From IMG/VR virus record IMGVR_UViG_3300034064_000771, positions 1 to 24,104 of that record: DNA of 24,104 nucleotides; one strand, given 5' to 3'. Under the pieces are notes generated by a model, which searched no databases, had not been told where the DNA came from, and was given only the letters and a program-made list of their open reading frames with translations. This DNA is from a virus. Below are positions 4,755 through 24,104 of the stretch, piece after piece (position 1 is the first letter of the stretch; each line of letters starts with the position of its first letter). A program made the translations under genes and the position numbers.

Positions 4755-4786
4755 AAATCACGACATATGTCGTGATTTTTTATTTT
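4755..4786 (+). terminator. Rho-independent terminator after nrdA
   Basis: A perfect 24-base palindrome at 4755-4778 (arms AAATCACGACAT and ATGTCGTGATTT) runs into a T-rich tract (TTTTTTATTTT). It lies 20 bases past the nrdA stop and separates the nucleotide-metabolism genes from the tail module. The symmetric stem could also work on the other strand, but no gene runs that way here. Confidence 0.85.
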
Positions 4787-4828
4787 GGGGTATTTATTAG
4801 AAATAATTGTGACACTATATTTATAGTT

Positions 4829-5287
4829 ATGAGTGATGGTAAAACATATGGAATTAATTTTCCTTTTAGAGATTCGTATGATGGTAAGTATTTAGACCTT
4901 TCTGATTATAATGACCAAGAGATTAGAAGTAGTCTGGTTCATTTATTATTAACAAGAAAAGGTACTAGATATTATTTACCTGATTTTGGAACTAGATTAT
5001 ATGAGTTTATTTTTGAACCTTTAGATGGTCCAACATTTTCGGATATAGATGCTGAAATTAGGTCTTCAGTGGAAGACTACATCCCTAATATCACAATAAT
5101 AAATATTAGTATTACCGCCGCGTCAGATGGTGAGGAGGATAAAGGTACTTATATTGATAGTAATGATGATAGAGTATATAGGGTTCCTGGTATAGGAACT
5201 AAAGAACATACCGCTAAAGTTAGAATTGATTATAGACTTAACAATGATGTGTTTAATCAAAAAGATTTTGTAATTATTAATATTTAA
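4829..5287 (+). CDS. gp25-like baseplate wedge protein
   Basis: A small baseplate protein of the T4 gp25 / TssE family, which links the wedge to the sheath in contractile tails. The family signature is visible at about residues 30-60: a basic RKGTRYYLPDFGTRLYEFIF stretch, then an EP pair (FEPLDG) and an alternating DI/EI helix before a final beta region. At 152 residues it is slightly longer than T4 gp25. A GTG at 4772 would extend the frame by 19 codons, but that codon sits inside the terminator stem and encodes a hydrophobic stretch atypical of the family. The ATG at 4829 (MSDGKTYGINF) is the likely start. The gp6-like gene follows after 6 bases, as in many contractile-tail clusters. Confidence 0.87.
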   Translation: MSDGKTYGINFPFRDSYDGKYLDLSDYNDQEIRSSLVHLLLTRKGTRYYLPDFGTRLYEFIFEPLDGPTFSDIDAEIRSSVEDYIPNITIINISITAASDGEEDKGTYIDSNDDRVYRVPGIGTKEHTAKVRIDYRLNNDVFNQKDFVIINI

Positions 5288-5293
5288 TGTTAT

Positions 5294-7132
5294 ATGGCAA
5301 ATAAAAAAATTTCATACACAACAAGAGACTTCCAAGCAATCAGAACGGAATTAATAAATTTTACAAAAACTTATTATCCGGATACTATTGAAAACTTTAA
5401 CGACGCTTCCGTATTTTCGGTATTAATTGATTTAAATGCTGCAGTAACGGATAACCTACAATTTAATATTGATAGAAGTATCCAAGAGACCGTATTACAA
5501 TATGCTCAACAGAGGTCATCAATTTATAATATTGCAAGAACTTATGGGTTAAAAGTTCCGGGTCAACGACCATCAGTTGCTTTAGTAGATTTCTCAATTA
5601 CAGTTCCCGCTTATGGAGATAAAGAAGATTTAAGGTATTGTGGTATATTAAGAAGAGGTTCTCAAGTTATTGGTGCAGGACAAGTTTTTGAAACTGTGTA
5701 CGATATTGATTTTTCATCACCATTAAATGCCGATGGATATCCTAACAGATTAAAGATACCAAATTTTGATTCAAATAATAAATTATTGAACTATACAATA
5801 ACTAAAAGAGAAACAATAGTTAATGGTATTACAAAAGTATTCAAAAGAGTTGTAACCTCAAATGATGTTAAACCATTTTTTGAGATGTTTTTACCTGAAA
5901 AAAATGTTTTGGGGGTAACGAGTGTTTTATTAAAAGACGGTACTCAATATGCGAACATCCCGTCTGCACAAGAATTTTTAGGGTTAGACGATAGATGGTA
6001 TGAAGTGCAAGCATTGGCTCAGGATAGAGTTTTTATCGAAGACCCAACTAAAGTGTCCGACCAACCTGGAATAAAAGTTGGTAAATATATGTCAACTAAT
6101 GATAAGTTCATAACAGAATATACACCAGAAGGGTTTTTTAAAATCACATTTGGTGGGGGTAGTCAATCTGCTGACGAACAATTAAGAGAGTTTGCTAGAA
6201 ATGGGTACGAAATGAACTTAAATAAATATTCCAATAATTTAGGGTTAGGTAGTATTCTTAAATCTAATAGTACAATCTTTATCCAGTATAGGATTGGTGG
6301 GGGTACAGGTTCAAATTTGGGGGTTAATGTTATTACTCAAATAGGGACTGTTTCATTTAGTGTTAATGGACCTTCAGATTCTATCAACACTAGTGTTATT
6401 AATTCATTAAGATGTACAAATGTTACTGCGGCAATCGGAGGAGGTAATTACCCAACAACAGAAGAAGTTAGAAATTTAGTTACTTATAATTTTGCTGCTC
6501 AAAATAGAGCGGTAACCGTAAATGATTATGAATCATTAATTAGGTTAATGCCGTCTCAATTCGGGGCGCCGGCAAAAGTTTCTATAACTGAAGAAAATAA
6601 TAAGATAAAAATCCAAATGTTGTCTTATGATGAAAATGGTAGTCTTACTGAAATTGTTTCAGATACTTTAAAACATAATGTGGCAAACTATTTGTCAAAT
6701 TATAGAATGATTAATGATTATATTTCTATTGAAGTTGCCAATGTGATTGATTTAGGGGTTAATGTTGATATTGTATTAGATAATACACAAAATCAGGGAG
6801 CAATCATTTCTAAAGTGATAAACATTGTGTCGGATTACTTCGCACCGACTAACAGACAAATGGGGGAAAATGTTAATGTATCAGAATTAAGACGATTAAT
6901 TCAAAGTGAGAATGGTGTAATTTCATTATCAGATATATTGTTCTTTAATAAAGTGGGGGGTCAATATTCTTCATCTCAAACATCTCAAAGATATTCTGAT
7001 TCTGAAACAAAACAAATTGAGTTGGTGGATGATACCATTTTTGCGGAACCAAAACAGACTTACCAAGTTAGATACCCTAGTAAAGATATTAACATTAGAG
7101 TTAAGAATCTTAAAACCGTTAATTTCTCTTAA
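5294..7132 (+). CDS. gp6/baseplate J-like wedge protein
   Basis: A central wedge protein of the contractile-tail baseplate (T4 gp6, P2 gpJ, eCIS Afp11 group). It forms the inner ring that holds the iris of the baseplate together. The 612 residues compare with about 660 in T4 gp6. Hallmarks include the N-terminal helical region with YTTRDFQAIRTEL at its start, an FGGG loop at 286-289, YRIGGGTGSN from residue 332, and the family motif RAVTVNDY at 405-412, followed by a C-terminal alpha/beta domain. It lies directly after the gp25-like gene. The order gp25-gp6 is conserved among myoviruses, which supports both assignments. The intact frame and typical length suggest a functional protein. Confidence 0.88.
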   Translation: MANKKISYTTRDFQAIRTELINFTKTYYPDTIENFNDASVFSVLIDLNAAVTDNLQFNIDRSIQETVLQYAQQRSSIYNIARTYGLKVPGQRPSVALVDFSITVPAYGDKEDLRYCGILRRGSQVIGAGQVFETVYDIDFSSPLNADGYPNRLKIPNFDSNNKLLNYTITKRETIVNGITKVFKRVVTSNDVKPFFEMFLPEKNVLGVTSVLLKDGTQYANIPSAQEFLGLDDRWYEVQALAQDRVFIEDPTKVSDQPGIKVGKYMSTNDKFITEYTPEGFFKITFGGGSQSADEQLREFARNGYEMNLNKYSNNLGLGSILKSNSTIFIQYRIGGGTGSNLGVNVITQIGTVSFSVNGPSDSINTSVINSLRCTNVTAAIGGGNYPTTEEVRNLVTYNFAAQNRAVTVNDYESLIRLMPSQFGAPAKVSITEENNKIKIQMLSYDENGSLTEIVSDTLKHNVANYLSNYRMINDYISIEVANVIDLGVNVDIVLDNTQNQGAIISKVINIVSDYFAPTNRQMGENVNVSELRRLIQSENGVISLSDILFFNKVGGQYSSSQTSQRYSDSETKQIELVDDTIFAEPKQTYQVRYPSKDINIRVKNLKTVNFS

Positions 7133-7169: not shown

Positions 7170-8081
7170 ATGGATTATTTAATAGAATTATTTGATGCGA
7201 TAAAAGGGAATAATGGGACTTGGGCCCAATGGTTTGTTATTAGTATAATTTTAAATATTAGAATATGGGTTGGGGTTCCAGTGTTTATTTATTATTTAAA
7301 AAAAATAATAAAAGAGGGTAAAAACAATACACTAAGAACATCAATAATGGTATTTCTATTAATCCAACTTATTGGTCACGAAATTGGTGTGGAAATTGTT
7401 GATAGAAAATTTGAAACCAAAAAATATAAGGTAGAATATGTGAAAAAAACTACAGATAATTTAGTGGTTGTTGTACAAGGTGCTAATAGTCCATTTAAAG
7501 ATTTTGTTGAAAAAAACAAAACTCAAGTTGATATTATAAAATCTAGAGATGAAAATGGGTTAGGGTTTATTAAATCAAATAAATTTAAAAATAATACACA
7601 AGTTTTAACATATGTAGGTTCTCATAGTGAGAATTTAACAACTGAAGATGTGTTTACAAATATCTATTATTATAAGTCATTAAACCCTAATGGTAAGGTA
7701 ATATTAATTGGACATAGTATTGGAGGGGATAATGTTTTACAAGTGGTTGATAGATTAAGTAAACAAAATATTTTTGTTGAGATGGTAATATTACTTGACC
7801 CAGCAAATAAAAAAAATAATAATATTGATTATATACTCCCAAAAAATGTTCAATACTTAATTAATTTTACATCACCAAAATGGACAGATAATTTTAAATT
7901 TTTCACTAATTCGGGTGGAAAACCATTGAGGGTTGATAAAAATCATATAACAATCGAAATCCCTAATACAACACATACAAGTATTGATAATGAAATATAC
8001 CCTATTTTATATAAATTGATTAAAAACTATGTTGAAAATAATCAAAATCCAATTACAATGGTTAAAAAATATAAATTTTAA
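7170..8081 (+). CDS. Predicted membrane-anchored alpha/beta hydrolase (lipase/esterase-like)
   Basis: Two hydrophobic segments near the N-terminus (about residues 19-43 and 58-76) enclose a short Lys/Arg-rich loop. By the positive-inside rule this places both termini in the periplasm if inserted in the inner membrane. The remainder resembles an alpha/beta-hydrolase. A strand VVVVQGA is followed by a nucleophile elbow GHSIGGD with S183. LLDPA then supplies a possible acid D210, and THTS supplies a possible base H269 in the correct order. The substrate cannot be read from the sequence; a lipid or ester in the envelope would fit. The gene is bordered by gaps of 37 and 74 bases in a module otherwise packed to within a few bases, so it looks like an inserted accessory gene. 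A lysis role or a change to the infected cell's surface is possible. The hydrolase fold is fairly likely, while function is open. Confidence 0.68.
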   Translation: MDYLIELFDAIKGNNGTWAQWFVISIILNIRIWVGVPVFIYYLKKIIKEGKNNTLRTSIMVFLLIQLIGHEIGVEIVDRKFETKKYKVEYVKKTTDNLVVVVQGANSPFKDFVEKNKTQVDIIKSRDENGLGFIKSNKFKNNTQVLTYVGSHSENLTTEDVFTNIYYYKSLNPNGKVILIGHSIGGDNVLQVVDRLSKQNIFVEMVILLDPANKKNNNIDYILPKNVQYLINFTSPKWTDNFKFFTNSGGKPLRVDKNHITIEIPNTTHTSIDNEIYPILYKLIKNYVENNQNPITMVKKYKF

Positions 8082-13683: not shown

Positions 13684-15495
13684 ATGGGTAATAGAATAGA
13701 TACAAGAGTAGTTTTAGGGTCGTTAAGATATAAAACAGCGTCAAATACTAATTTGATGTTTAATGTCCCTTTAATACAAACAACTAAAGAAAATGTTGAA
13801 TTTGATAGAAATATTGACATTTCATTAGAACAAGTTTTTGATGATGAACGACAAAAATCTAATATATTTAGACCGTCTTGTAAATTTTCAGTTTTATTTG
13901 AAAATTCATATACTGGTTTAACAAATTACACACCATTAGAGAATAATTTAGTTTACGTTAACGAAACTCAAGCATCTATAAACCAATGTAATCTTAATCC
14001 CGAAGCGGTTTCTTGGTCAGGATTTCCCCAATATCACGAATTTGATTTTATTAGAAGTGATTATAATGTTGTTGGGTATACTCAACCACCTAATAATCAT
14101 AGAACATTTATTAGTAAAAGTGCTTCCACTTATAATTGGAATTTTTTTGTTAGCTATCCGTTTGAGAATCTTTATAATAAAAAAATGCAGGCGATAGAAA
14201 GTAAAACAACTCAAACTTTAGATTGGACTGCATCTGATGGAATACCATTTATTATTGAAAACTCGACAATAAATGGTTTAGATATTATATCATTTAGATG
14301 TCCTGTGAAACACGGTATAAATGTTGGTGAATTTGTTAAATTAAATTTTTCTTATAATACTATAGATACTTTTGAGGTATATACATTAGGTGATGGTAAA
14401 TCAAATAGTGATTTGTTTATTTTTAATATTTTTAATGTTGGGTTTACGGGGACAACTTTTGATGATAATGTTGAGGGAACATTTAAACGAATTATTAATA
14501 ATGAAATACCAAATGAAACAACTTCAAAATATTATGTTAGAAGACATAAAATATTAACAAATGCTAATGATGCTGTATTAGTTAATGCGGGGTTTGACCA
14601 AAATATTTTTGGTATTAATAAAAAGTTTGAGAGTAGTGGATATACTCCAAACAAAATAGAAAGAGTTTCTATTAAAGAAGGTTCCCAATCATATACATTG
14701 TCTTTTAATGCTGATATTGACATTAACCCTCTTAGAGATAATCAAAAAAGACCTATAACTGAATTATTTTTTACAACAATATGGAAAGGGTATTTTGGGT
14801 TAATGTTTGGTAGACCTAAAGGGGCTAATGATGGGTTTTATGGTATGAAACAAGGTTATGGGTTTAATTTACCGTTAGACCCAGACGATAAATTACCAAT
14901 TCTTTGGTGGGGTGATGGTATTCTTGATTCTAATACTAATTTTCCTTTAAGTAGTTATACTACACCATTAGGGGTAAAGTTAAACGGTGACCCAATAGAT
15001 TTTACGTATGTTGAAACATTAAAATTAGGTGATACATTAGATGGTGATTATTGTGAATGGAATGATTATGAACAAAAAGAAAGAATCATATCTAATTTAT
15101 ATCATAAACTTACCTATAATTCGGAAGTTTTTAATATTGGAACACCCTCACCTAATGGTGTTAGAATGAATAGAAATAATCCTTATGGGTATTATTATCA
15201 ACCTCATAACGGAATAACAATAAGTGAATATTCTGATTACATTGAGGAGGGTGATAAAATAAATGTTGCTGATATTCCATACTATTCTTATTACTCGGAA
15301 AGTAAGGGTAGGTTCATATGGAGAGATAAATACACTTATGGTTATATTGACCCTAAAGGGAATGGGGTTGATTATCCTTTTTTAAATGGTGTTCATTACC
15401 CATATAAGAATATAATTTTTAGAATAATACCGGAAGGGACTAATTATAGTCAACAGACCATAGTAGCTGAACCAATAATAGATAATTGTGAGTAA
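13684..15495 (+). CDS. Unrecognised tail/baseplate-associated structural protein (603 aa)
   Basis: I do not recognise a family. The protein is rich in aromatic residues, Asn, Gly and Thr, with alternating hydrophobic stretches typical of beta-structured virion proteins, and has no signal peptide or membrane helix. Recognisable blocks are a Cys/His segment FRCPVKHGINVGEFVKL, a central SKYYVRRHKILTN stretch, a TELFFTTIWKGYFG segment, and a Tyr-rich C-terminal third ending YPYKNIIFRIIPEG. The start (ATG at 13684) is 2 bases after the upstream stop, and the next gene starts within this one, so translation is probably coupled. Position suggests an outer baseplate or fibre-connector protein, by analogy with the place of gp8-gp10 in T4, but I see no clear sequence likeness to those. 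Confidence 0.72.
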   Translation: MGNRIDTRVVLGSLRYKTASNTNLMFNVPLIQTTKENVEFDRNIDISLEQVFDDERQKSNIFRPSCKFSVLFENSYTGLTNYTPLENNLVYVNETQASINQCNLNPEAVSWSGFPQYHEFDFIRSDYNVVGYTQPPNNHRTFISKSASTYNWNFFVSYPFENLYNKKMQAIESKTTQTLDWTASDGIPFIIENSTINGLDIISFRCPVKHGINVGEFVKLNFSYNTIDTFEVYTLGDGKSNSDLFIFNIFNVGFTGTTFDDNVEGTFKRIINNEIPNETTSKYYVRRHKILTNANDAVLVNAGFDQNIFGINKKFESSGYTPNKIERVSIKEGSQSYTLSFNADIDINPLRDNQKRPITELFFTTIWKGYFGLMFGRPKGANDGFYGMKQGYGFNLPLDPDDKLPILWWGDGILDSNTNFPLSSYTTPLGVKLNGDPIDFTYVETLKLGDTLDGDYCEWNDYEQKERIISNLYHKLTYNSEVFNIGTPSPNGVRMNRNNPYGYYYQPHNGITISEYSDYIEEGDKINVADIPYYSYYSESKGRFIWRDKYTYGYIDPKGNGVDYPFLNGVHYPYKNIIFRIIPEGTNYSQQTIVAEPIIDNCE

Positions 15496-16318
15496 TAAAT
15501 TTAAATTTGTTTTACCGGCAACCGACAAGTATATTGATTTACCAATAGAGTTAAAATGGGACTTTTATGGTAGAGACGATAGTATTGAGATATATGAACA
15601 TGAGGTTATTGAGGAAATTATTGGAACCGCTTACGATTTTGAGGTGTTTAGGTTTAGTCATGAATCGTATTCTAGCGATACAAAAACGGATATTAAATAT
15701 GATTTCCATTTTTTTAGTGTTGATGGTGATGTCCCGGATAACCCTTCAACACAAGTAATAACCTCAACAACTAATGATTGGGTAATTAGTTATATACCCG
15801 AAGGATTTACAAAATCGGAAGTGTACTATTATGAAAAACCATTTACCAAATCATTTTTTAAATTGGATTTTTATGATACAATTGATGGTAAATCTCAAAC
15901 AAATTATTTTACGGTAATTATCCCTGTCCAACAGGGGGCAACTGAATCAGTTAGTGTTTCACAATATACTCCAAATGTTGATATAAAAATACCGTCGTAT
16001 CAGTTAGATTTTGTGGGTGATAAAGAAGGGTTTTTTATATATTGGTTAAGAAAAAAAGAGTTTATAGATATAGACACTTTTTATATGAGTGCAAAATTCT
16101 TTGATGCTAGATTGGGTGTCTATGTTAAAATGAGTAAAACTCCCCAAATATTATTGACGCCAACCCTATTTCAATTTAATGATTCAAATTTTTATTATAA
16201 AGTAAAATTGGATTTAGATAAAAAAACATATCAAATTTTTGATAAAGATATTAACAATAATGATGTTAGAGTAGGAACAGATAGTTCCATAAAATGGTAT
16301 GAATATGTTAATCCTTAA
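15488..16318 (+). CDS. Unrecognised beta-rich tail protein (276 aa), GTG start
   Basis: No family recognised. Translation begins at GTG 15488 (MSNKFKFVLPATDKY) and overlaps the previous gene by 8 bases. No ATG lies nearby in frame, and the first codons read as sensible protein, so GTG initiation through coupling is the simplest reading. The sequence alternates hydrophobic and polar residues with many Phe, Tyr and Asp, contains no Cys, and has no membrane helix, consistent with stacked beta-domains. A boundary may lie around residues 150-170, where a VIIPVQQGATESVSVSQ stretch separates two beta-rich halves. Context suggests a virion component made in fixed ratio with its neighbours. The gene is certain from frame and packing; the role is inferred only from location. 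Confidence 0.7.
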   Translation: MSNKFKFVLPATDKYIDLPIELKWDFYGRDDSIEIYEHEVIEEIIGTAYDFEVFRFSHESYSSDTKTDIKYDFHFFSVDGDVPDNPSTQVITSTTNDWVISYIPEGFTKSEVYYYEKPFTKSFFKLDFYDTIDGKSQTNYFTVIIPVQQGATESVSVSQYTPNVDIKIPSYQLDFVGDKEGFFIYWLRKKEFIDIDTFYMSAKFFDARLGVYVKMSKTPQILLTPTLFQFNDSNFYYKVKLDLDKKTYQIFDKDINNNDVRVGTDSSIKWYEYVNP

Positions 16319-17449: not shown

Positions 17450-18358
17450 ATGGCAACAGGAACGTATGGTACTATAAGACCGGCAGATGTATCTCCGGCA
17501 GATGTGGAGATAATTTTAAATTATACGTCATCAAGAGATGAAACAGATAATTTTGTTTTAACAACATTAAATTCGGCGGATATATTAAGACCCTATTTTA
17601 ACTCTCAAACCACTGGTGGTGTTGCAGATGTTGAAATATTGGGTGGATTATACAATTTAAGACTCCCTGCTGACCAATTTAACAAAATAGGTATCTATAC
17701 CTTATTTATTAGACCGGCTCAAATTAGAACCACTATTTTAGATTGTGGGGTGTTGTCGGCATTACCTAATGTTAAAGGTATTATCATTGACTTGAATGCT
17801 GTACCGGCACAATTTAAAAACAAATTTGTTAATCAAGGATTAGTTGGTTTTAGGGTTGAGTATTTAAATTCTGATAACACAAAAATACCTAATTTTTTCA
17901 GATTAATCACATCTTCTTTCTTTTGTGAACCGGTTGTTCAAAATTTGGTTAATACATCTCAAAAGGCGATAAGATATAGATATACGGATAATAGTACTAA
18001 TTTGATATTTTGCACTATGTCCCCATCGTCAGCACCAACTAATAAACCAAATGCGACACCATATATTGGACAGCCAAATCAAAATATTATTATTAGTAAT
18101 ACTTTCTTTAACCCAATAACATTAGATGTTGAGATTGCAGAACACGATTTCTCAACTCTTGCAATTGCGTTGTTTGGTAATCAAACTAAATCAATGGATG
18201 ATGGAATCTACACTCTATATGACACAGCTAATAACATATACAAACAATATAACTTATACGAAATTAGAGACCAATTTAATACCTTGTTATATGAAGTTAG
18301 ACAAGATAGAGGTAGCAATATTGATTATAGTAAAAACTTTACAAATATAACTGAATAA
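17450..18358 (+). CDS. Unrecognised tail-module protein (302 aa)
   Basis: No family recognised. The protein begins MATGTYGTIRPADVSPADVE, where PADVS/PADVE is a five-residue duplication matched by an 11-base direct repeat in the DNA (17480-17490 and 17495-17505). The middle is hydrophobic/polar alternating, with FNKIGIYTLFIRPAQIRTTI and a Pro/Asn-rich stretch near residues 190-210. The C-terminal third is more charged (YNLYEIRDQFNTLLYEVRQD). There is no signal peptide or membrane segment. It starts 1 base after the PKD-domain gene and its TAA shares its last A with the next ATG (TAATG), so it is translated together with the gpI-like gene. A baseplate or fibre-adaptor role is inferred from position. 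Confidence 0.7.
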   Translation: MATGTYGTIRPADVSPADVEIILNYTSSRDETDNFVLTTLNSADILRPYFNSQTTGGVADVEILGGLYNLRLPADQFNKIGIYTLFIRPAQIRTTILDCGVLSALPNVKGIIIDLNAVPAQFKNKFVNQGLVGFRVEYLNSDNTKIPNFFRLITSSFFCEPVVQNLVNTSQKAIRYRYTDNSTNLIFCTMSPSSAPTNKPNATPYIGQPNQNIIISNTFFNPITLDVEIAEHDFSTLAIALFGNQTKSMDDGIYTLYDTANNIYKQYNLYEIRDQFNTLLYEVRQDRGSNIDYSKNFTNITE

Positions 18359-21300
18359 TGGCGTTAATAAAATATACTTGTCCCCCACAATCGGCAACAG
18401 GTGCTGGTACATTTTCCGATGATTTAGTTGGTTTCCAATTAGTCCAAGGAGGTGGTTTAACGCAGGGGAATTTTGAATTTACAACATCAATTACTGAAAA
18501 GAACAACAGGACATTTAACACTGGTAATTTTTCAGAACCAATTAATTTGGACGGTCTTGGGATTAGTAGTGTTGCTCAATCTAGATTAATATTTGAGAAT
18601 AATTTCAAAGTATATCCAAATTTCGACCTTACCCAAGTTACCAATTTCACCCAATATGGGTCAATGGTTAAAAGAATCTCAACATCAGTTGAGACTATTA
18701 TTAGTAAATTTCCTGCGGCATTAGAGGTGACTTTAATGGATGAAAATTATGTGACTGGTGTAACGGCATCAAATATTACATATATTGGTTCTGACGATGA
18801 AACTAGTTTTGAACTAAATGTTTCTAGAATTAGAAACCCTTTTGATGTTGATTTTACGGTTAACGCCACAAGAAATTTACAATTAAGGGAAGTTCAAGTA
18901 TCGGTGTTAAGAAATATGACAATGCAATACGCAAAGTATTCGTTATATTATAACAATAATGGATTTGATGTAGTTGCGATAGTTCCGACAACATCATTGT
19001 CTTCGGGAGTATTAAAAATATATGTTAAGGGTAATCCATTTTCGGGTCAAACTAACACTTATGATGATTTAGTTATTAGACCTAATGATTCTGAAGTTAA
19101 TCAGGTGTTTAATGAAAGTTTAGATGAGGTTCAAAGATTTTTATTAAATAGAAATGTTGTACCAAAATACACAGCGACATTTCAAGTACCGGCAGATGCT
19201 GATGATGGTACATATTATGTTTTAAATCAAAATGTTACTTGGCCATTATATGGTAATTGGAATCTTGATATTATTACACCAGCCTTTACCAACTATTTAA
19301 CAACATTAAATGGTTTGAGTGAATCATTTGATTTGTATAAAACAAATTTAATATCAAGATTTTTAACAACAGGCGCCTTTAAGGACTTTGATACTATAGG
19401 TCAAAAGATGGAGTCTGTTCTACAAATATATGGTAGAAGTTTTGACGAAACAAAAAAATTCATAGACGCTTTAGCATATATGAATTCGGTTAATTATAAT
19501 GTGGGTAATGATATCCCATCTCAATTATTAAAAAATTTAGCACAAACTTTAGGGTGGAATACTAATATATCACCAATAACAAATGATGAATTTTTAACAT
19601 CAGTTTTTGGTGAGAAAAACAAAAATGTGTCTGAATTTGCGGGGAGTAGTGACCAACAAACTCCGGATGAATTAAATTATCAATATTATAGGAATTTAAT
19701 TCTTAATTCGGCTTATTTGTTTAAATCTAAAGGAACAAGAAAATCTGTTGAGATATTATTAAGATTGATTGGTGCTCCGGATGCGTTAGTAGATTTTAAC
19801 GAATACATATACTTGGCAGACCAAAGAATTAGTGTAAGTGATTTTAATTCTAGTTATGCTGCAATATCTGGAGGAACATATGTTAAAAATGTACCAACAA
19901 TAGAGGTTGGTAACACATATAGATTCCAAGGTGTGGTATATACAGGATTTACCTCAACAACAATAATGAAGGATGTTAATGTTTCATTAAGTGATTACCC
20001 TATTGATAGTGAAGGTTATCCATCAACACCTCCAAATACAGAAGATTATTATTATGAAAAGGGTAGTGGTTGGTTTGAATCAACTCCTCAACATAGAGCA
20101 CCGGAAGAAGTTAATCTTACTAATAGCGTTTTTACAGGGTCAAACCCTGATTATCAAACAACATTAACACCATATACCTATGGTCAAGAATATTTGGATA
20201 GATATGTTAAATTTCCATTTATGTCGTTAGGGTATGACATTAGACAAACAATTGATAATAATAAAAGTTGGGTTGATGATGAAATTGGTTTACGACAAAA
20301 TTTAGATGGTAATTATAACGCAAGGTATTATACGGAAAGTGATAAATTAGTTTTAAACGCTAAAAATACTGATTTATTCTTAAATCCTGGACAAGGATTA
20401 TCATATGATGTTTGGGTGATGTCAAGACAATATAATTTCCCAATACCAAATGAGGGGTTAAATTATGTCGCTCCGATTTATTGTAATCCAAATCCTGTGT
20501 CAAATTATCCGGATAGGGGTGGTATTGATAATACGGTTATTAATCCACAACCAAAGAATAAAACATTTTTTGAATTTGCTCAAACTTTTTGGTTAAACAC
20601 AATTAATGTTAGAAATAGACAATATATTAGTGATGGTAAAACAATGGGTTATCCAACATTAGAATCTATTTATTGGAAATATTTAGAATCAGAAAAACTT
20701 GCCGGATTGGAGAACGATAATTTTAATTATCAGACGATGATTCAGTATGTTAATGGTCTTGGTGATTATTGGGTTAGATTAGTCGAACAGATGATACCAG
20801 CGACAACAATATGGAATACGGGTGTTAGATATGAGAATTCAATTTTCCATAGACAAAAGTTTGTGTGGAGAAGACAAGAAGGTTGTAAATTTATTCCGAT
20901 TCTTTGTAGACCTTGTTCTCTAACATCAAATATTTTTACATATGATTGCCCAATTGAATCGGTGTCTTGTGGTGCCTATCCTGATGATTCTTTTGGTATT
21001 GTTTTAGCTAATACGTTAACGGCTTATTTAAGTGATACAACTTATACTTTAAATGACTGTTTGTATGAAGAATTAAAAAGTGTTTGGTATGTTGAAATGA
21101 AACTTAATGGTGAGGATATCGTAAAAATCCCATTTTTTATAGGGTCGGGGTATACCACAAGTATAAGTGTTCCTAGTGATGCTCAATGGACAGAAGCTTT
21201 GGTAACTAATTTAAAAAGTTTACTAAATTATGGTTACGCGTATTATTTTACTAAAGATAATGTTGTTGTAGAAGAGTTTGAACCATTTAACCAAATAGTG

Positions 21301-21396
21301 GTTTACGATTCGATATGTTCTGTAAACTCAACCGGTATTAATTTTGAATTAAATGTCGGAATAAATTTTGAAATTTTATGTACACATGGCTTGTAG
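18358..21396 (+). CDS. Baseplate/tail protein with central gpI-like domain (1012 aa)
   Basis: Residues about 335-490 resemble P2 gpI-type tail proteins and the matching wedge proteins of contractile tails. The segment has SQLLKNLAQTLGWNT (a loop of the LxxLAxxLGW type) and then YYRNLILNSAYLFKSKGTRK with a following helix ILLRLIGAPDAL, the characteristic R...KGT...GAP pattern. In such systems this protein sits between the wedge (gp25/J-like) and the fibres. The first 330 residues are beta-rich and the last 500 are Tyr/Asn-rich with a cysteine-containing end (CRPCSL, then C-terminal CSVNS and CTHGL), so the protein is much longer than gpI and may itself bind the adhesin encoded next. The start overlaps the preceding stop by one base, and the next gene begins 11 bases before its end. 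The gpI relation is by motif only. Confidence 0.7.
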   Translation: MALIKYTCPPQSATGAGTFSDDLVGFQLVQGGGLTQGNFEFTTSITEKNNRTFNTGNFSEPINLDGLGISSVAQSRLIFENNFKVYPNFDLTQVTNFTQYGSMVKRISTSVETIISKFPAALEVTLMDENYVTGVTASNITYIGSDDETSFELNVSRIRNPFDVDFTVNATRNLQLREVQVSVLRNMTMQYAKYSLYYNNNGFDVVAIVPTTSLSSGVLKIYVKGNPFSGQTNTYDDLVIRPNDSEVNQVFNESLDEVQRFLLNRNVVPKYTATFQVPADADDGTYYVLNQNVTWPLYGNWNLDIITPAFTNYLTTLNGLSESFDLYKTNLISRFLTTGAFKDFDTIGQKMESVLQIYGRSFDETKKFIDALAYMNSVNYNVGNDIPSQLLKNLAQTLGWNTNISPITNDEFLTSVFGEKNKNVSEFAGSSDQQTPDELNYQYYRNLILNSAYLFKSKGTRKSVEILLRLIGAPDALVDFNEYIYLADQRISVSDFNSSYAAISGGTYVKNVPTIEVGNTYRFQGVVYTGFTSTTIMKDVNVSLSDYPIDSEGYPSTPPNTEDYYYEKGSGWFESTPQHRAPEEVNLTNSVFTGSNPDYQTTLTPYTYGQEYLDRYVKFPFMSLGYDIRQTIDNNKSWVDDEIGLRQNLDGNYNARYYTESDKLVLNAKNTDLFLNPGQGLSYDVWVMSRQYNFPIPNEGLNYVAPIYCNPNPVSNYPDRGGIDNTVINPQPKNKTFFEFAQTFWLNTINVRNRQYISDGKTMGYPTLESIYWKYLESEKLAGLENDNFNYQTMIQYVNGLGDYWVRLVEQMIPATTIWNTGVRYENSIFHRQKFVWRRQEGCKFIPILCRPCSLTSNIFTYDCPIESVSCGAYPDDSFGIVLANTLTAYLSDTTYTLNDCLYEELKSVWYVEMKLNGEDIVKIPFFIGSGYTTSISVPSDAQWTEALVTNLKSLLNYGYAYYFTKDNVVVEEFEPFNQIVVYDSICSVNSTGINFELNVGINFEILCTHGL

Positions 21397-24104
21397 TTTA
21401 TCATATATATCAAGTATAACTGGGGATTGTTCTAATCTCTCATTAGGGTCTTTCTCAATTGACATTCAAGGGGTTGCTCCTGACTATACAATCCAATGGT
21501 TATCGCCAGCTTATGGGACAATACCATTAGGTGCTGGCGTGACGGGATATACTATTAATAGTTTATCGGCGGGGACGTACTCGTTTAATATTCTTGATTC
21601 ATGTAATAGTCCCGGAATTACGACAGTTCCGGTAAATATTTACATATCAAGTGGTACTTGTGTTAGTATAACGAACCAAAGAAATACTACTTGTAATTTT
21701 AATAATGGGTCGATAACTGCTCAAACTCAATATCAATATGGGACTTCGAAATTTTATTTATACGAAAACACTATTGGATATTTATCTTCAGGGTCTACAT
21801 TAAATTCTAATTTTTCTTTTAATTCTTTATCGCCTGGGATTTATTATGTTATTGGTGATGATGGCGGTGGATGTACGGGTAAATCAGAAACTTGTATAAT
21901 TAAATCGTCTACCACTCTAGATTATGGTTTTTACGTTGTTAATGATGCGGGATGTAATGTAAATTCAGGTAAAATATTTGTAACAGGATTGATTGGTAAT
22001 CCTCCATATACTTATCTATGGTCTAATGGTGGTACATTATCGTCAATTACAGGATTAACTAATGGTCCTTATAGTGTTACAGTAACTGATAATACGGGGT
22101 GTTCAATATCTAAAAGTACTGAAGTTATTAAAGTACCTCAAATAGGGTTAGGTGGGTTTACATCCATTAGTCCTGGTTGTTTTACAAACAATGGTGAATT
22201 AACGGTTTTTATAACGGGAGGTACTGCACCATATTATTATTCAGCCTCAACCGGAGAATCAAATGTTTCGTTTGACACCCAATACACATTTACTAATGTG
22301 CCAGGAGGAAGTATTTCGGTGTATGCTCAAGATGCTGGTTTATGTAGTTTTGTTGCTTCAACAACTTTACAAACACCATCAGGGTTTAATGTAACATCGG
22401 TGACGGTAACTAATTCAAAATGTAGTAATTCAAATGGAATTATATCTATAGTGTTATTTGGTACTAATGGTAATATTGTTTATAAATTGACTGACTCAGA
22501 TAACAATTCTATTGAAGAACCAACCGATAGTAAAACATGGTCATTTAATGGTTTAAAATCTGATACATATACTTTAACCATTTCAAATGGTGTGTGTGTT
22601 TATACTAATACATATACGGTTATTAATGAGTCGTTATATGATATTAATATTTTAACCACAGGAACGACTTGTAATACACCTAATGGTGTTGTTAATATAG
22701 AAATAGTTGGAGGTGTTCCACCTTATTATGTTAATGTAGGTTTCCAATCAGAACAAATTACCCCACCATATAGTTCTATAACTTTTAATAGTGTAATTTC
22801 AGGTTCATATACTGTTCAGGTAAGAGATTCTAGCCCAACTCCGTGTCAACAAACTAAAGATTTTGAAATAGATTCGTCCGAGAATGTTGGTATTTTATTA
22901 GTTAAAACTGATATTGTAAATGGTAATGATGGGACTATAAATGTTTTTATAACTGGAGGCACGCCAACATTTGATTTACAATGGAGTCCTAATGTGAATG
23001 GGCAAACCGGTTATACTGTAACTAATTTAAGCGCGGGGACATATACCTTAACTGTCACTGATTCAGATAATTGTGTTAAAGAAAACTCAATAACAATTTA
23101 CGGGTATGAAAAATTATCGTCTTATGAATCTTACACTATTTGTGATAGTGATTTTGAGGATATTGGAGAATTAGGTAAATACGGAATATATGAAATGTAT
23201 TATGATGGGTATTATACTCATGTGTCGGGATTCACTAATTGTATTTTAGATTCTGCTACGTTTAAGTTAATTGTTACAATTGGAAATGTGGAAAAATATA
23301 ATGATTTTTATGTAAGTAATTCATTAAATGATTATCCATTCGATAATGAGTATTATGATGTATTAAAGGGGTTGGTTGATAGTTTTGACCAGGTGTCTCA
23401 AACTATTATTGACCCTGTAAATAATCAAATTCAAATAATTACTAAATGTGATGAGGAATTTTTAGTTCCTGCTCATGTTGTTGTGAGTTTGTATATTGAT
23501 TATAGTATTTCGTGTCAATATTGTGGTTCTGTACCCTCATTATCACCAACTCCTACACCTACAAACACTCAAACACCAACTCCTACACCAACACTAACTA
23601 GTGTACCTGCTTGTGACGTTAATTATAGTATTGCTGTAAATAAAGGTGTGGATTGCGGATTATATATTCAAGGAATACAACCTAACTGTCAATTGGCATC
23701 TTTAAGTGTTGGAGCATTATCGTCTAGGTCGGGATGTACAATTGGCACATATGTTATTGACTGGTATTTAAATGATATTAATGGTTCTCCATCATTTACG
23801 TCAGGTTCTAACGTTAATGCGTCACCGGATGTTACTGTCGTACAACCATTCAGTGATGAACCTGCTCAAGGTGGTACATGGTTTCCAGTTATTAGGTTTG
23901 CGTATTTAAATGGTGTTCAATACACTTCAGATATTAATTTAGTTAATGGTAGTGTTAAATATAGTCCTGATTTAATTACAGTTCTTAACAGCGTCTGTGT
24001 TGAGGCATATTCTTGTTCTTCAGGTATATCAGGAAATACATATCCTGTAACAGTATCGTATGTTAATACCACTCAAAATTCGACACGAGCAGAAAGAAGT
24101 ATTA
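21386..24104 (+). CDS. SprB-repeat-like tail fibre/adhesin protein, 3' end outside window
   Basis: An open frame of 906 codons starting at ATG 21386 (MACSLSYISS), overlapping the upstream gene by 11 bases and running off the window end. An ATG at 21378 in another frame stops quickly. Residues from about 28 to 563 hold about seven repeats of the SprB type. The clearest are PPYTYLWSNGG...VTVTDNTGC and a late one ending LSAGTYTLTVTDSDNC. SprB is the mobile surface adhesin of gliding flavobacteria. A non-repeat domain follows, then a Pro/Thr linker at 721-738, then a Cys-containing domain starting CDVNYSIAVNKG. No signal peptide is seen, as expected for a virion protein assembled in the cytoplasm. 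As the distal gene after the baseplate set, it is probably a receptor-binding fibre. The repeat call is strong; the adhesion role is inferred. Confidence 0.8.
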   Translation, partial: MACSLSYISSITGDCSNLSLGSFSIDIQGVAPDYTIQWLSPAYGTIPLGAGVTGYTINSLSAGTYSFNILDSCNSPGITTVPVNIYISSGTCVSITNQRNTTCNFNNGSITAQTQYQYGTSKFYLYENTIGYLSSGSTLNSNFSFNSLSPGIYYVIGDDGGGCTGKSETCIIKSSTTLDYGFYVVNDAGCNVNSGKIFVTGLIGNPPYTYLWSNGGTLSSITGLTNGPYSVTVTDNTGCSISKSTEVIKVPQIGLGGFTSISPGCFTNNGELTVFITGGTAPYYYSASTGESNVSFDTQYTFTNVPGGSISVYAQDAGLCSFVASTTLQTPSGFNVTSVTVTNSKCSNSNGIISIVLFGTNGNIVYKLTDSDNNSIEEPTDSKTWSFNGLKSDTYTLTISNGVCVYTNTYTVINESLYDINILTTGTTCNTPNGVVNIEIVGGVPPYYVNVGFQSEQITPPYSSITFNSVISGSYTVQVRDSSPTPCQQTKDFEIDSSENVGILLVKTDIVNGNDGTINVFITGGTPTFDLQWSPNVNGQTGYTVTNLSAGTYTLTVTDSDNCVKENSITIYGYEKLSSYESYTICDSDFEDIGELGKYGIYEMYYDGYYTHVSGFTNCILDSATFKLIVTIGNVEKYNDFYVSNSLNDYPFDNEYYDVLKGLVDSFDQVSQTIIDPVNNQIQIITKCDEEFLVPAHVVVSLYIDYSISCQYCGSVPSLSPTPTPTNTQTPTPTPTLTSVPACDVNYSIAVNKGVDCGLYIQGIQPNCQLASLSVGALSSRSGCTIGTYVIDWYLNDINGSPSFTSGSNVNASPDVTVVQPFSDEPAQGGTWFPVIRFAYLNGVQYTSDINLVNGSVKYSPDLITVLNSVCVEAYSCSSGISGNTYPVTVSYVNTTQNSTRAERSI
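21467..23073 (+). repeat. Array of about seven diverged SprB-like protein repeats
   Basis: Each unit runs roughly 60-85 codons. A typical unit has C..NNG near its start, then a GG.PPY strand, an aromatic/W..G loop, a turn such as LSAGTY or LTNGPY, and a VTVTD..GC end. Units begin near 21467, 21670, 21953, 22165, 22395, 22655 and 22920. The first, third and last are the best matches; the others have drifted. The DNA is not conserved between units, so the array is old rather than a recent expansion. Confidence 0.75.
23544..23589 (+). repeat. Direct repeat coding for Pro/Thr linker
   Basis: CACCAACTCCTACACC occurs at 23544-23559 and again at 23574-23589, exactly 30 bases (10 codons) apart. It encodes most of an 18-residue linker made almost only of Pro and Thr (residues 721-738) between the domain after the SprB-like array and the next domain. 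In-frame spacing means copy number could change by slippage without a frameshift. Confidence 0.7.

Follow-up and report, generated by a model that had tools for sequence, protein, structure and literature searches.

The closest described parallel to the locus reported here is a tail-region protein of crAssphage, in which BACON domains (PF13004), an immunoglobulin (Ig)-like module shared with Bacteroidota proteins, stand in tandem; the sections of that work cited here (PMC6949934) describe one clade per position, a conserved order and one BACON domain that lies near bacterial domains in the tree. We examined IMG/VR virus record IMGVR_UViG_3300034064_000771, whose 24,104 nucleotides we call the window, and found at its end a fibre gene (21386-24104, + strand) with a comparable tandem array, built here of SprB repeats (PF13573). 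Unlike the BACON array, this one has a point of contact with bacterial domains that is not fixed by our trees, and exchangeable heads behind proline/threonine (Pro/Thr)-rich linkers are a feature of the present fibres. We consider it likely that the gene encodes a tail fibre with a conserved SprB-type stalk and a swapped receptor-binding head, on a phage that has a T4-like baseplate and probably infects Bacteroidota. After BACON, SprB would then be a second module of bacterial surface proteins that phages of Bacteroidota use in tail-region proteins in the form of a fixed array.

Bacteroidota proteins with SprB repeats share the domain family with the fibre over about 75 residues, including both cysteines in its first six domains (D1–D6). 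The fibre differs from them in that no type IX secretion system (T9SS) sorting domain was found in it, that it seems, by eye, to lack a signal peptide, and that its repeats occupy seven fixed positions with a phage-only domain behind them. The BFVD library already gives the label 'SprB repeat' to a protein of this family, A0A6J5LD72 from an uncultured Caudovirales phage; it has 714 aa, is 33% identical to the fibre over 722 alignment columns and, to judge from its size, ends at the core without a head. We found no account of this fibre in the open-access literature searched, subscription papers and preprints lying outside the search; SprB is absent from the main text on the 'Moraphages' (PMC12619734), which may be related.

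Seven SprB-type repeats in the fibre gene

The fibre gene begins with an ATG, shares its first 11 bases with the end of the gene before it and is still open at the contig end, with 906 residues visible; an in-frame TTG lies ahead of the ATG, at 21368. A first-pass annotation had described the interval as an adhesin of about seven SprB-like units. Pfam bore out the repeat type, as PF13573 matched the protein in four stretches (E = 8.4e-11, 41.8 bits against a cut-off of 28), one of which reached 28 bits alone (29 bits). The generic Ig-like families listed, a kind that the annotation had named as the alternative, remained under their Pfam cut-offs (CarboxypepD_reg, 18.9 against 32.3; Y_Y_Y, 15.6 against 26.6; PKD, 14.9 against 27; Ig_J, 13.9 against 29). 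Because the PF13573 model spans just 37 residues of a repeat domain of about 75, we examined the whole domain. Bacterial loci (at least 119 stretches) were picked by an SprB-type peptide motif, a sample biased to SprB-type units, and a profile of the phages' third domain gave 1422 domain matches in the open reading frames (ORFs) of 118 of 119 such loci.

A hidden Markov model (HMM) of 297 bacterial units, gathered using a phage profile and run with the database size set to 1, found exactly seven domains in the window's protein, at residues 12-83, 93-176, 182-251, 259-333, 335-416, 421-499 and 512-572 (independent E-values, 5.8e-23 to 3.2e-7). At E < 1e-3, it matched 71 of 71 distinct fibres (collected as described below), none of their reversed versions and none of the shuffled ones (0/71 each; best shuffled, 0.0073). 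As the 297 units had been collected via a phage profile, we built a second HMM from 115 bacterial units cut solely around the peptide GTYTVTVTDANGC. This motif-only HMM also matched 71 of 71 fibres and no reversed or shuffled sequence, and it recovered the same seven domains; at 1e-3, it had no match in nine other window proteins or in 134 ORFs of Flavobacterium phage immuto.

The seven domains follow one another on the + strand. The highest scorer against bacterial units was D3 (residues 179-252, 21920-22141), with 66.9 bits from the 297-unit HMM and 52.3 bits from the motif-only HMM, followed by D7 (500-574, 22883-23107), with 60.1 and 51.6 bits. D4 (253-333, 22142-22384; 1.8e-13 with the 297-unit HMM) and D6 (417-499, 22634-22882; 1.7e-11 and, with the motif-only HMM, 1.8e-5) were likewise clear with both models. 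D1 (1-92, 21386-21661), a predicted beta-sandwich, had E-values of 2.9e-9 and 0.0031. The divergent D2 (93-178, 21662-21919; 1.8e-7) and D5 (334-416, 22385-22633; 3.2e-7) fell short of significance on their own when the motif-only HMM was used (0.53 and 0.078). The four PF13573 stretches fell in D3 (22.7 bits, 21935-22036), D4 (29 bits, 22178-22255), D5 (19.1 bits, 22400-22504) and D7 (24.2 bits, 22919-22996). Comparisons among the units with hhalign gave probabilities of 85-99.5%, except for D1 with D2 (42.8%). Two cysteines are kept in each of D1–D6 in 94-100% of the phages, placed as in the bacterial units listed, and D7 retains the second cysteine only. Tandem Repeats Finder detected no tandem repeats at the DNA level.

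The structure prediction was in line with seven repeats. It contained seven beta-sandwiches (10-residue means of the predicted local distance difference test, pLDDT, 78-93) and a folded eighth domain, with the rest unpredicted; the mean pLDDT was 73.3 and the predicted template modelling score 0.33, so the model does not give the relative orientation of the domains. Foldseek placed the Aureispira grappling hook protein GhpA (PDB 9flp and others) first, at 2.4e-19 and ahead of cell-adhesion proteins. GhpA, a very long bacterial protein by comparison (5898 residues in the PDB sequence), was also the best match among PDB sequences to a profile of D3–D7 from 20 of the 71 sequences (profile A2; 1.4e-5, with a large composition bias), a phage decoration protein coming close behind (2.3e-5); the window protein alone reached a best E of 0.11 against sequences of solved structures. 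With VIA-align, fibronectin gave the best row (Z 11.2), and the GhpA chains reached at best Z 10.2 amid many Ig and fibronectin type III (FnIII) proteins. Since GhpA does not rise above these, structure alone does not single it out, and we dropped a special kinship to GhpA on that basis. The predicted fold of the repeats is a common one.

A FastTree analysis took in 98 units from phages and 111 from bacteria (76 columns). For each position from D1 to D7, one or two changes sufficed to group the units of 14 diverse phages; seven were needed for the bacterial label. With a smaller set in IQ-TREE (35 phage and 40 bacterial units, trees on 76-81 columns), the bacterial label needed three changes. 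Because the units of each position stand together, or almost so, in all 14 phages, the repeat array is old and fixed within this phage group. Recent capture from the host was dropped, as the array positions predate the divergence of the sampled phages. The annotation had proposed that the modules were taken from the host. What stands of this is the common ancestry of the phage modules and the units of bacterial surface proteins; capture itself and the predicted nesting within Bacteroidota units were neither shown nor excluded by the trees, as a single clade of all phage units was not rejected and outscored the free search (approximately unbiased test, p-AU 0.818). Derivation of the array from the host is plausible. 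A search of bacterial genome contigs with profile A2, using one pattern, gave 23 stretches, none of them confirmed.

A conserved core and exchanged heads

The interval given by the annotation also holds sequence other than repeats. The eighth domain, D8 (575-713, 23108-23524, folded at about 601-713), is homologous to the C-terminal part of the 1012-aa protein encoded just before the fibre (hhalign 96.6%, E 5.7e-10, 94 columns). D8 is unrelated to the repeats and phage-only: probabilities between the repeat units and D8 were at most 1.9%, and D8 had no matches in the bacterial ORFs of the motif-chosen loci. It is followed by a Pro/Thr-rich linker evident from the sequence (714-745, 23525-23620; pLDDT under 50) and by the start of an exchangeable head (746-906, incomplete, 23621-24103). 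Another contig, L244, shares the last 50 bases of the window exactly, and its frame runs on for 712 residues to a stop. The two likely come from one phage, and the fibre with this continuation would have about 1618 residues, including a second linker and domain. The next gene on L244 (2710-6048), probably of the window's phage, is fibre-like; it has repeats of the IGGG type as well as GTSGSSG stretches that resemble collagen (6.7e-27 with Pfam Collagen).

We then compared loci across IMG/VR. Among the best 80 of 160 stretches that encode a relative of the 1012-aa neighbour, many of them close kin and hence not independent, a fibre relative was the next ORF after the neighbour gene in 75; four of the remaining five contigs stop inside the neighbour gene and one has 427 bases beyond it. 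Including loci found by the fibre itself, there were 114 fibre ORFs, of which 43 were dropped (41 contained in longer ones and two near-identical), leaving 71 distinct fibres, 61 of them complete, for an alignment of the window's fibre and 70 others. The core, D1–D8, measured 706-736 aa where its end was reached, and four aligned fibres stopped short. Ten of the 61 complete fibres ended at D8 and 51 extended by 118-690 aa, often via Pro/Thr-rich linkers. Domains D1–D8 are thus nearly constant in length, and what comes after them varies from nothing to 690 aa. Three fibres (L026, L032 and L042) have a longer core of 802-805 aa, with about 70-90 aa extra that apparently make up one added domain.

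Extensions of 40 aa or more were present in 57 of the 71 aligned fibres, several of them cut by contig ends. BLAST sorted the 57 into groups of 26, 12, 5, 4 and 2 and eight singles, one of which is the window's (linker residues may inflate the largest group), and Pfam named few of them at 1e-3 (PKD_4, three; DUF285, three; Fib_succ_major, one; PBP, one). In the five relatives with the closest cores (L045, L051, L047, L049 and L046; 75-84% identical to the window's), the heads had no BLAST match to the window's incomplete head, and the L244 continuation matched none of the other 56 heads. One pair of fibres had cores that were 92% identical and heads that were 41% identical.

Homologues of the window's head were found on other proteins in L243 and L245, namely a 1610-aa protein (L243) and a free-standing 666-aa ORF in a phage of 735 kb; the 712-residue continuation on L244 matched these same two proteins. 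Over 154 aa, the head shares 49% identity with a C-terminal part of the 1610-aa protein, whose N-terminal ~250 residues are a homologue of a different protein of the window, one of 276 aa (15488-16318, + strand; 27.8% identity, E 4e-17, 245 aa). In L015, the core stops at D8, and a gene shortly downstream bears a head that resembles the L026 and L103 heads. From these comparisons, head and core can be uncoupled, and heads appear to have been swapped between phages and between baseplate-region proteins. A conserved proximal part and a variable, exchanged distal part would be the pattern of tail fibres, if the head is taken to be the distal end.

Genomic setting and role of the fibre

The ORFs that we took up in the window all lie on the + strand. 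They encode a helicase-like protein, the small and large subunits of ribonucleotide reductase (assigned from their sequences, the large one from its matches in annotated phages), a gp25-like baseplate wedge (4772-5287; PHROGs 1.9e-17), a gp6-like baseplate wedge (5294-7132; PHROGs 9.1e-25), several big unassigned proteins, the 1012-aa protein (18358-21396) and the fibre. Among annotated phages, the large reductase subunit is nearest to those of Cellulophaga and Tenacibaculum phages (38-40%). Identity of the gp6-like protein is 25.6% with the wedge of Flavobacterium phage immuto, the same with a Microcystis phage and 27.5% with an uncultured phage. Because of these matches and a repeat type common in Bacteroidota, the phage probably has its host in that group. 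Scans of the window for Rfam families and tRNAs gave none. A 303-aa ORF among the baseplate-region genes (7170-8081) has a hydrophobic N terminus and weak matches to alpha/beta-hydrolases, all under cut-off.

The annotation had placed the fibre gene directly after baseplate genes, and this tail-fibre-like position was supported by the upstream wedge genes and by a neighbour that is the same in 75 of the 80 loci compared. The neighbour itself had no usable family match (Pfam, PHROGs and NCBIfam), nor did its relatives (PHROGs and NCBIfam); its model was poor (mean pLDDT 51.6), and a fold search gave no match at E <= 0.001. Its baseplate role is thus read from its position. Among annotated phages, relatives of the fibre occurred in three records, all of uncultured huge phages, and relatives of the neighbour in none; a 41.8-kb region of immuto had no match to the D1–D8 or neighbour profiles at E 0.01.

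In the model that we favour, the seven SprB-type Ig-like domains and D8 would make a conserved stalk on or near the baseplate, joined by the Pro/Thr-rich linker to a C-terminal head that would bind the receptor and be swapped between phages and baseplate-region proteins. The protein would be part of the virion, and attachment may run through the conserved D1–D3 and/or D8. One of the two functions suggested by the annotation, that of a simple stalk, was supported. The model would indicate that the specificity part is the hopping C-terminal head, and it offers a way to locate the receptor-binding part in uncultured phages, behind the core and Pro/Thr linker.

Several observations weigh against this model. 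Head turnover is not the rule, as most close pairs keep related heads. A head match spanning at least 60 aa remained in all 13 pairs whose cores are at least 90% identical; the counts were 30 of 37 for core identities of 80-90%, 29 of 33 for 70-80%, 26 of 34 for 60-70% and 43 of 238 for 50-60%. The window's head has no Pfam match and an unpredicted fold (pLDDT under 50). No family match of the neighbour points to an attachment site for the fibre, and tail-fibre role, virion presence and binding are in every member read from genes and predictions. In PHROGs, both of the relatives' fibres that we scanned matched head-and-packaging families (L034, phrog_2973 'Hoc-like head decoration', 4.8e-12; L103, phrog_26672 'virion structural protein', 1.7e-6), which would fit another location on the virion.

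These PHROGs matches could place the protein on the head or neck of the virion, as a Hoc-like decoration or a neck whisker, and profile A2 also matched PDB sequences named decoration protein (2.3e-5 and 2.0e-4) and neck whisker gp24 (4.2e-4). We regard this as improbable: the gene adjoins the same baseplate-region gene in nearly all loci, and the window protein itself has no PHROGs match at 0.1. Somewhat less unlikely is that D1–D8 form a spoke or brace of the baseplate or tail, with the extensions as optional decorations and not as the main receptor binder. This would account for the ten complete members that end at D8, for the nearly fixed length and order and for a D8 common to the neighbouring protein; however, 51 of 61 bear large extensions, and some of these have moved from phage to phage and from anchor to anchor in the manner of receptor-binding heads.

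The annotation's other suggestion, that of a fibre with the same binding partners as the host adhesin, found no support. Homology over the full domain, including the two conserved cysteines, would suit repeats that themselves bind the partners of SprB-type proteins, but the repeats are conserved and positionally fixed whereas the C terminus turns over, and their fold is a common one in which GhpA ranks among fibronectin and other Ig/FnIII chains; we give such mimicry very little credence. Receptors of Flavobacterium phages have been proposed, in the text cited, to be part of the gliding machinery (PMC7345892). The idea that the SprB-type stalk touches the moving SprB-type filaments of the host sideways, so that the virion is carried along the gliding/T9SS track while the head seeks its receptor, is highly speculative, and we would be surprised if it held.

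SprB repeats, gliding and secretion signals

The annotation regarded SprB repeats as modules of a gliding adhesin. The family assignment held, and the tie to gliding is mostly a name. GldJ is a stand-in for gliding. Among 148 genomes, of no stated completeness, drawn from the phylum of a Flavobacterium, 36 had PF13573 matches (33 over cut-off), counting the centre genome of the sample, which had been chosen for its motif. GldJ was over cut-off in just 17 of these 36, and we did not keep a gliding-specific role for the fibre. Some GldJ-like match occurred in 34 of the 36, which may reflect divergent GldJ or paralogues, as weak matches also appeared in two of 14 control genomes; of the two genomes with no GldJ-like match, one has 29 repeat matches. 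SprB repeats also occur, in the passages cited, in T9SS substrates adjoining toxin genes (PMC7073777). Automatic 'SprB repeat' labels on phage proteins are not to be taken as gliding adhesins.

The N terminus of the fibre (MACSLSYISSITGDCSN...) has, by eye, no basic-hydrophobic stretch, and the consensus start of the alignment is alike. NCBIfam detected no T9SS sorting domain in the window protein, the L244 continuation or the L103 and L034 fibres. The L054 fibre matched TIGR04183 (24.4, cut-off 23) at residues 356-405, which lie within the repeats and not at the C terminus.

Large related records, not known to be complete, had PF13573 matches in ten of ten cases (nine over cut-off), many in the fibre gene and others elsewhere. 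Because certain related or huge phages encode SprB-repeat proteins with T9SS signals, the module may have a use on infected cells as well as on virions. In a 642-kb uncultured phage (LR756502.1; L246:6894-11906), a 1670-aa ORF looks like a complete secreted adhesin: its N terminus is hydrophobic by eye, and it has 13 SprB stretches (311 bits), PKD and a T9SS sorting domain of type B (50.1 bits with TIGR04131, cut-off 35). Phage-encoded T9SS cargo has been reported for 'Cryophage', with no mention of SprB in the part of the report cited (PMC7468147). A 203-kb relative of the window's phage (G005; L248:3925-9489) has a 1855-aa ORF, again with an N terminus hydrophobic by eye. In this ORF, PKD_6 matches seven stretches and SprB four, and a T9SS sorting domain of type A scores 34.7 bits (cut-off 23); G005 also carries the virion-type fibre. 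Across G001-G010 and LR756502.1, sorting domains over cut-off were of type A in two of 11 records and of type B in three of 11. Four further phage proteins, L253:4087-5472 (+), L250:974-2773 (-), L251:1492-2064 (-) and L252:1626-2285 (-), have one or two SprB-like units (22.5-30.9 bits, mostly under the cut-off of 28) and varied C termini, that of L250 being a Fib_succ_major head.

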